From: Peristeroidobacter agariperforans
GTDB taxonomy: Bacteria; Pseudomonadota; Gammaproteobacteria; Steroidobacterales; Steroidobacteraceae
Direction: 5' to 3'
DNA length: 64,000 bases
NCBI RefSeq assembly: GCF_004138335.1
Contig: NZ_RYFW01000001.1
Coordinates: forward strand, 1,364,001 to 1,428,000
Made by a program: the position numbers and the translations under genes. The notes beneath the pieces were generated by a model, which did not search any database, was not told the origin of the DNA, and saw only the letters and a program-made list of their open reading frames with translations. Positions 45,124 through 47,882 of this stretch are shown here, in pieces (position 1 is the first letter of the stretch; each line of letters starts with the position of its first letter).

Positions 45124-46017
<894 letters not shown>

Positions 46018-46051
46018 GTCGAAGATTCCCCTCCAGTCAGTGGTCAGAAGT

Positions 46052-46078
46052 TTAGCAATCGCGATGTTTGAGTGCTAA
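46052..46078. promoter_or_regulatory. CIRCE element (HrcA operator) upstream of rpoH
   Basis: TTAGCAATC (46052-46060), 9 bp, GAGTGCTAA (46070-46078) matches the CIRCE consensus TTAGCACTC-N9-GAGTGCTAA with a single mismatch. It lies 35 bp upstream of the rpoH ATG. On the minus strand it coincides with a weak promoter (TTAGCA, 18 bp, TAAACT), so HrcA binding would block rpoH transcription. Confidence 0.8.
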
Positions 46079-46115
46079 GTCGACTTGAAAGTTCCGGCGG
46101 CGCCCATAGGTTCCG

Positions 46116-46205
46116 AACGGTTTGCGCTCAGCTAAACCGTTGATAATCCTGAAGTCTTTTAGCCTTCAGGCGGCCCGTGAACCGCAGTCACGAATGCCGT
46201 GACTG
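46116..46205. other. Three consecutive perfect stem-loops between ftsX and rpoH
   Basis: AACGGTTT/AAACCGTT (46116-46123/46134-46141), CCTGAAG/CTTCAGG (46148-46154/46164-46170) and CAGTCACG/CGTGACTG (46185-46192/46198-46205). The middle one has a TCTTTTAGC loop. They may end ftsX transcription, structure the rpoH leader, or form a small RNA. Confidence 0.55.
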
Positions 46206-46236: not shown

Positions 46237-47151
46237 CTAGGTGGGTTCGATGGCCCGCAGATGGCGGGTGGCCGCAAGGTAAGACCCCAGCCAGCCCAGA
46301 ACGATCCCGCTGCCGAGCAGGATCAGGGTGGCCCGTGCGTCCAGGCCGCCCAGCTGGAAGGCGCTGCCGTACAGGCCGGCCAGGCGGCCAATGGGCTCAC
46401 GCAGGATGGCAATCACGGCCGCGGTGATGATCCAGGCGGTAATGCCGCCGCCCAGGCCGTACCAGATGCCGTTGTACAGGAAGGGCCGACGGACGAAGCC
46501 GTCGGTGCCGCCGACGAGCTTGGTCACTTCGATCTCGGCGCGGCGGTTCTGGATGTCCAGCCGGATGGTGTTGCCGACGATGACCATGACGCCGAGCGCC
46601 AGCAGCGCTGCGGCCACGATCAACCCCCGGCGGACCGTCTCGAGGATGGCATTGAGGCGATTCACCCAGGCCGTATCGAGCTGCACGACTTCCACCGACG
46701 GCATCGCGCGCAGGTCGGCGGCGAGGCTGTCGAGATTGGCAGAGGTCGTGAAATCCGCGGCCGGGGTGACGACCAACGTATGCGGCAACGGATTCTCATT
46801 GAGCGCATCGATGGCAGCGCCGAATCCCGAGTCGTGCCGGAACTCCTTCAACGCCGCGTCCGCCGTGATCACTTCGACGTTGCTCACATCACGGCGCTGC
46901 TTGATGCGGCCGGCAGTGCGGCTCGCATCTTCCGCGGAAGTGGGGCGCTTGAGGAACACTGTGAGATCGACGGCTTTGTTCCAATTGCCCGTTGCGTTCT
47001 GCGCATTGCTGATGAGCAGGTGCAAGCACGCGGGCAACGCGAGCGCGATGCCGATGACGAGCACCGTGAGCAGTGTGGCCAGCTTTTGCTGGGACAATCG
47101 GCCGAGCGAGCCGATCGAGGTCTGGGCGTGTCGGGTCAGCCAGGCGCTCAT
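46237..47151 (-). CDS. ftsX: Cell-division permease-like protein FtsX
   Basis: A 304-residue membrane protein. TM1 is at about residues 25-47 (LATLLTVLVIGIALALPACLHLLI), then a large periplasmic domain (to ~165) and three C-terminal helices. VFLKRPTSAEDASRTA and GNTIRLDIQNRRAEIEVTKLVGGTDGFVRRPFLYNG are diagnostic. With FtsE it forms the type VII ABC complex that activates septal peptidoglycan hydrolases. The ATG (TGATG) overlaps the ftsE stop by one base, so it is coupled. Confidence 0.95.
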   Translation of the reverse strand: MSAWLTRHAQTSIGSLGRLSQQKLATLLTVLVIGIALALPACLHLLISNAQNATGNWNKAVDLTVFLKRPTSAEDASRTAGRIKQRRDVSNVEVITADAALKEFRHDSGFGAAIDALNENPLPHTLVVTPAADFTTSANLDSLAADLRAMPSVEVVQLDTAWVNRLNAILETVRRGLIVAAALLALGVMVIVGNTIRLDIQNRRAEIEVTKLVGGTDGFVRRPFLYNGIWYGLGGGITAWIITAAVIAILREPIGRLAGLYGSAFQLGGLDARATLILLGSGIVLGWLGSYLAATRHLRAIEPT

Positions 47152-47882
47152 CACATCGCTCCTTCGGAGCCGGTGATGAGCTTGGCGGGGTCGACGAGTT
47201 TCTCGCCGGCGCTGATGCCCGCGGGAATGTCATCGACGACTCGGCCGCATTCCAGCCGCACCCGTCGCACCGGGAAATGCTCGAGCAGGTACAAGTCGTG
47301 GCTCGCGACCAGCACCGTCACGCCGACTTCGTTGAAGCGACGGAAGATATTCATCACTTCCAGCGACAGCTCGGGATCGAGGTTGCCGGTCGGCTCATCC
47401 GCAATCAGCACCGGCGGCTTGCTCACGACCGCCCGCGCGATGCCGACGCGTTGTTGTTCACCCGTCGAAAGCTCGAGCGGCACGCTCTGTTCGCGACCCA
47501 GCAGTCCCACTTGATCCAGTGCCGCGCGCACGCGCTTGCCGATTTCCTTCGTGCCGACACCCGCGATGATCAGCGGCAGCGCGACGTTGTCGAAGATGGT
47601 GCGATCGTGCAGCAGTTTGTGATCCTGGAACACCATGCCGATCTGGCGGCGAAACGCCGGGACCTTGCGACGCGAGACGCCGCTGACGTTCTGGCCATTG
47701 ATGATGAGTTGGCCGCGCGTCGGCCGCTCGATCAACGAGATCAGCTTGAGCAGGCTGGATTTGCCGGCGCCCGAGTGACCCGTGAGAAACACGACCTCGC
47801 CGCTGTCGATCTCCAGTGAAAGATCGCTGAGCGCCTCGCGGCCGTTCGGGTAGCGTTTGAAAACGTGATCGAAACGAATCAT
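47151..47882 (-). CDS. ftsE: Cell-division ATP-binding protein FtsE
   Basis: A 243-residue ABC ATPase. Walker A is GHSGAGKSSLLKLI, signature LSTGEQQRVGIARAVV (a family variant) and Walker B PVLIADEPTGNLDPE, with the H-loop in VASHD. The opening MIRFDHVFKRYPNGREALSDLSL is typical of FtsE. It powers FtsX during division. The start at 47882 is chosen over an upstream extension because the domain begins there; the gene lies 10 bp after ftsY. Confidence 0.95.
   Translation of the reverse strand: MIRFDHVFKRYPNGREALSDLSLEIDSGEVVFLTGHSGAGKSSLLKLISLIERPTRGQLIINGQNVSGVSRRKVPAFRRQIGMVFQDHKLLHDRTIFDNVALPLIIAGVGTKEIGKRVRAALDQVGLLGREQSVPLELSTGEQQRVGIARAVVSKPPVLIADEPTGNLDPELSLEVMNIFRRFNEVGVTVLVASHDLYLLEHFPVRRVRLECGRVVDDIPAGISAGEKLVDPAKLITGSEGAM

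Follow-up and report, generated by a model that had tools for sequence, protein, structure and literature searches.

Textbook accounts of how sigma-32 is controlled come from Escherichia coli, a bacterium without HrcA. Control of the sigma-32 gene, rpoH, by sigma-E is already established: in Pseudomonas aeruginosa the sigma-E factor AlgU transcribes rpoH, and rpoH promoter P3 is the sigma-E/AlgU promoter in both that species and E. coli (PMC13104619). For the repressor HrcA, the available part of PMC6032397 describes titration between HrcA and GroE in Helicobacter, Bacillus and Chlamydia. A CIRCE element, the binding site of HrcA, has also already been predicted in front of rpoH. Rodionov et al. 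2004 (PMC545781) placed one computationally at position -51 before rpoH of Geobacter sulfurreducens, a delta-proteobacterium and the only species with an rpoH CIRCE in the table of that paper. In G. sulfurreducens hrcA and groESL are under CIRCE as well (PMC545781, accessible part), whereas in the genome studied here groES has a CIRCE and none was found at hrcA. The rpoH CIRCE described below overlaps a sigma-E-type promoter, and the accessible part of PMC545781 describes no such overlap for G. sulfurreducens.

The sequence-only reading of this locus had set it against E. coli as a species without HrcA, and the contrast holds at both ends: E. coli, one of 14 control genomes in the HrcA search, gave no HrcA match, and rpoH of E. 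coli K-12 has no CIRCE-like site, the best candidate having 8 mismatches. HrcA control of rpoH in Gammaproteobacteria is not named in the literature titles and abstract openings listed, which is a weak absence given that subscription journals are thinly covered there. The class-wide extent of the arrangement and the fusion of promoter and operator at rpoH, which we describe as new, are not named there either, although a 2003 study by Permina and Gelfand, which by its title reportedly deals with the same regulators and bacterial groups, may overlap and may already report rpoH CIRCE sites in some of them.

The operator before rpoH and its repressor

The window, by which we mean the whole 64-kb stretch of DNA analysed, carries rpoH on the minus strand at 45124..46017, an open reading frame for a sigma-32 of 297 aa that scores 415 bits against TIGR02392 (cut-off 323). 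Its ATG is at 46017, and a likely ribosome-binding site, GGAGGGG, can be read from the sequence at 46028..46034 on the same strand. A CIRCE close upstream of the rpoH start, with a single mismatch, was the central claim of the sequence-only reading, and the motif scan places exactly such a site at 46052..46078, separated from the ATG by 34 nt. On the plus strand it reads TTAGCAATCGCGATGTTTGAGTGCTAA, with the arms TTAGCAATC-N9-GAGTGCTAA, one mismatch away from the consensus TTAGCACTC-N9-GAGTGCTAA. On the minus strand, the direction of rpoH, it reads TTAGCACTC-AAACATCGC-GATTGCTAA, and the mismatch falls in the right arm. The next gene upstream, an open reading frame at 46237..47154 on the minus strand, is presumably ftsX, a name that we assign from its position; in the annotation of E. 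coli K-12, ftsX likewise lies directly upstream of rpoH. Between this ftsX-like gene and rpoH stands a hairpin, CCTGAAG-N9-CTTCAGG (46148-46170, minus strand), which is possibly the end of the upstream transcript; a strict terminator scan made no call for it.

In the 64 kb scanned, 46052-46078 is the sole match to CIRCE at three or fewer mismatches (shuffle mean 0.01). The 7.65-Mb assembly has two sites with at most one mismatch, those upstream of groES and rpoH, compared with 0.006 expected under the assumption of equal base frequencies. A search for other CIRCE sites in the genome was one of the checks that the earlier reading proposed, and the groES site, again with a single mismatch, provides one. 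When three mismatches are allowed, the whole genome gives 3 matches, the same number as the reversed-pattern control (3), so weaker matches carry no weight and only near-perfect sites rise above the background. A chance match as the origin of the rpoH CIRCE is ruled out by the window shuffles, the genome expectation and the conservation in the order and the class. The third CIRCE-like site, with two mismatches, lies at C9:1886654-1886680 (L003:1501-1527) before the gene for a 209-aa protein; the two proteins downstream of it match no Pfam family, and, among the matches listed, its sequence recurs in a close relative (G001) and is confined to these two genomes.

The HrcA search found one hrcA gene in the genome, the gene without which the sequence-only reading would not have stood. 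Its product is a full-length HrcA that exceeds the TIGR00331 cut-off of 197 bits with a score of 347 and has a winged-helix and a C-terminal Pfam domain, both above their cut-offs; the gene after it is one that we take to be grpE. The 3.7-kb hrcA locus contains no CIRCE at six or fewer mismatches. Autoregulation of hrcA through CIRCE is out, because none of the three assembly sites at three or fewer mismatches adjoins hrcA, and a strict sigma-32-type promoter pattern was not found before the gene. With no CIRCE at the hrcA locus, the predicted HrcA set therefore consists of groESL, rpoH and one doubtful site.

We consider it very probable that the inverted repeat at 46052..46078 is a working HrcA operator that controls transcription of rpoH and lies over a sigma-E-type promoter and probably also a sigma-70 promoter. 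Binding of HrcA at rpoH, and repression by it, are what we infer from the DNA and its conservation.

Conservation in the order and the class

The sequence-only reading also depended on the repeat being kept in relatives, and the comparison of rpoH upstream regions bears it out. The order sample comprises 60 genomes, own included, with RpoH in 56, hrcA in 53 and a CIRCE of two or fewer mismatches somewhere in 59. A CIRCE at that threshold precedes 55 of the 56 rpoH genes, own included. The lone exception (G047) has no hrcA match and no CIRCE of two or fewer mismatches anywhere in its genome. Three genomes (G039, G048 and G054) have the rpoH CIRCE while hrcA was not detected, and six of the seven genomes without an hrcA match still carry a CIRCE somewhere.

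For the class we sampled 124 genomes, about one per family. RpoH was found in 112, 108 loci were taken and 105 passed alignment. At three or fewer mismatches, CIRCE precedes 73 of these 105 rpoH loci (43 sites with no mismatch, 21 with one, 5 with two and 4 with three), where the chance of a match is about 0.0001 per rpoH upstream region. Three loci left out at alignment also carry an rpoH CIRCE, with 0, 1 and 1 mismatches. The rpoH-CIRCE layout is common in the class and not peculiar to this genome. In one genome (G069, L171) CIRCE-like repeats stand in tandem before rpoH, by eye TAGCAGTC-N9-GAGTGCTAA and then a perfect CIRCE a few bases on.

The site goes together with the repressor gene. 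The search detected hrcA in 87 of 124 class genomes, and among the 104 with a usable rpoH locus the rpoH CIRCE is present in 66 of 73 hrcA-positive versus 7 of 31 hrcA-negative genomes (Fisher p 1.6e-11, with ancestry ignored, as no tree was used). Exceptions run both ways, with the site but no detected hrcA in 7/31 and hrcA but no site in 7/73. The assemblies, in class and order, that have a CIRCE but no detected hrcA include both incomplete and complete ones. Outside the class, rpoH CIRCE was found in 1 of 30 Pseudomonadota families, and in just 2 of 10 further gammaproteobacterial families drawn at the phylum level. The single family outside Gammaproteobacteria (L335, G314) has one mismatch in its CIRCE and no match to the sigma-E regular expression used below.

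A CIRCE is able to fold in a 5' leader, as has been discussed for Bacillus, and the repeat could instead work at the RNA level, as a leader hairpin of rpoH that serves stability or thermosensing, not as a DNA operator. Pairing within the repeat gives two answers: in the class set it is retained at 25 of 40 deviant arm positions when G-U is counted, but in the order at just 5 of 20, and the window's own mismatch breaks a pair. A hairpin would not predict the co-occurrence with hrcA, and its left arm would be untranscribed if the start is that of the sigma-E-type promoter. We regard an RNA element as extremely improbable and keep to a DNA operator for HrcA.

Predicted promoter elements that overlap the operator

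Promoters of sigma-E (RpoE/AlgU) have the consensus GAACTT-N16/17-TCnnA, with GGAACTT as the -35 and TCnnA as the -10. In the window, GGAACTT (46095-46089) is followed at N17 by TCAAA (46071-46067) in the direction of rpoH. We thus have a predicted -35 at 46089..46095 on the minus strand, based on the sequence and a conserved GAAC, and a predicted -10 at 46067..46071 on the same strand, the TC of which closes the left CIRCE arm. The earlier claim that the site lies over the likely promoter is thus supported and can be made more specific: the operator has bases in common with a sigma-E-type promoter and with an extended -10-like element.

The spacing recurs in relatives. GAAC starts 15-16 nt before CIRCE at 45/55 rpoH sites in the order and 43/73 in the class, and TCnnA stands at the end of the left arm, 16-17 nt past the -35 hexamer, at 46/55 and 48/73. 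A sigma-E regular expression matches 43 of 55 CIRCE-bearing rpoH regions in the order and 49 of 73 in the class (shuffle means 0.3 and 0.5), and is absent from the other 12 and 24.

The right arm holds a second candidate element. Together with the following ACT it forms the extended -10-like TGCTAAACT (46049..46057, minus strand), conserved as TGnTAnnnT, which we tentatively read as a sigma-70 element. The extended -10 of sigma-70 has a TGnTATAAT-like consensus and occurs with or without a -35. TGnTAnnnT is present in 55/55 order and 66/73 class rpoH sites, and the T at +3 after the right arm in 55/55 and 67/73, against 2 of 28 groE sites. A strict scan gave no consensus sigma-70 promoter, which lowers our confidence in the sigma-70 assignment.

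These counts also bear on a rival account in which HrcA represses rpoH from a promoter of sigma-70 type only, and GGAAC and TCnnA are a by-product with no link to sigma-E. TGnTAnnnT is wider in both samples than the sigma-E expression, and of the 24 class sites that lack the latter, 21 have it. Genome-wide, the strict sigma-E motif has 3 matches versus 13 for the reversed control; it is not enriched and, alone, is uninformative as a genome-wide predictor. Nor is the motif clean at rpoE. One gene exceeds the curated rpoE cut-off (310 bits against 236), and around it strict GAACN17-20TCNNA was not found, the nearest element by eye being GAACTT-N16-TCTAT. Against a promoter of sigma-70 type only stands the -35, which lies outside CIRCE and is fixed at the sigma-E spacing, and just one of 28 groE CIRCE sites has GAAC at this distance. 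Moreover, in 10 of the 49 class matches the sigma-E match sits farther upstream of CIRCE and has its own TC. The same expression also gives a single match upstream of rpoH in E. coli K-12, GAACTTGTGGATAAAATCACGGTCTGA (GAACTT-N16-TCTGA), which we take to be the known sigma-E promoter P3. Overall, we hold the sigma-70-only account to be unlikely and prefer an operator that lies over both a sigma-E-type and, probably, a sigma-70 promoter. As a side observation, the RpoE family model has 43 matches in the genome, one of them over the cut-off, so that ECF-type sigma factors are abundant in it.

A protein-blind check started from the DNA alone, with a pattern of GAAC, CIRCE and TCnnA at their spacing scanned over genome contigs. 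It matches at least 118 loci, and 100 of the 118 listed have an RpoH match that starts no more than 350 bp downstream (70 among the first 80). Matches before rpoH include Deefgea, Dyella, Alcanivorax, Aromatoleum, Methyloversatilis, Pseudacidovorax and a Steroidobacteraceae MAG. Of the 18 others among the 118 listed, seven stop no more than 200 bp from the site, nine come from records with the titles Glycomyces (with groES), Ruminococcus, Ruminococcaceae, Oscillospiraceae, Clostridia or Eggerthellaceae, and two are records, titled Thauera and Geobacter, in which the RpoH match overlaps the site and is hence uncounted under the 350-bp rule. Locus L322, titled uncultured Geobacter and from a metagenome, has the fused GAAC-CIRCE at rpoH and is either a case of mis-binning or a delta-proteobacterial example.

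The groE operators use the same motif in a different setting. Among 28 groE sites from this order, the -35 before CIRCE is TTGAA in 21, TTGAC in 6 and TTGAT in 1, and by eye the promoters are mostly sigma-32-like, with CTTGAAA...CCTATTA before CIRCE. Operator and repressor are those of the known HrcA/CIRCE control of groESL, and CIRCE stands before groES here too. The difference is that CIRCE follows a TTGAA-type, sigma-32-like promoter at groE, whereas at rpoH it lies over a sigma-E-type -10.

The groE sites also help in judging whether the rpoH site is a relic, formerly bound by HrcA and now without a role in this genome, with its right arm decayed. The right arm does have one mismatch, and the same position deviates in 11 of 14 genus members. 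The left arm, GAAC and TCnnA are, however, all kept in 14/14 genus members. CIRCE sites at groE in several genomes of the family (for example L001, L378 and L386) deviate in one arm too, reading TTAGCAGCC or TTAGCACCC, often at arm positions 7-8, and in the 11 genus members the deviation at rpoH falls on position 7 of the opposite arm. Taken together, the one-arm deviation at groE and position 7 at rpoH suggest that the preference of HrcA has shifted rather than that the site has decayed. We give the relic very little chance and continue with a functional operator.

The predicted circuit and its meaning

In the circuit that we propose, HrcA, aided by GroEL, would occupy the rpoH operator in the unstressed cell, covering the sigma-E-type -10 in the left arm and the extended -10, probably of sigma-70 type, in the right arm. 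Heat or misfolded protein would disable HrcA, upon which sigma-E and sigma-70 polymerase would transcribe rpoH and sigma-32 would rise. Sigma-32 would then act on groESL through the sigma-32-like promoter just ahead of the groE CIRCE, and the new GroEL would restore HrcA and close both groESL and rpoH. From this arrangement we infer an AND-type gate at rpoH, in which envelope stress, acting through sigma-E, would bring about the full rise of sigma-32 only if HrcA is inactive as well.

With somewhat better than even confidence, we extend this to hrcA-bearing Gammaproteobacteria in general, including records titled Betaproteobacteria. The fused rpoH promoter-operator would be the normal state there, with a single 27-bp CIRCE contributing to a sigma-E -10 as well as to an extended -10 of sigma-70, and HrcA, sigma-E and sigma-32 would form one AND-gated circuit. 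The E. coli type of rpoH, with sigma-E control and no HrcA, would be what remained after the loss of hrcA and the operator. One count runs counter to this last point: among class rpoH loci without CIRCE, the sigma-E expression matches within 330 bp upstream in only 6 of 32.

If the proposal is true, the other main heat-shock system would itself act on the sigma-32 gene in most hrcA-bearing gammaproteobacteria. Cytoplasmic signals, through HrcA and GroEL, and envelope signals, through sigma-E, would meet within about 50 bp. This would explain why hrcA and the rpoH CIRCE go together, and would make a derived origin of the E. coli scheme likely.
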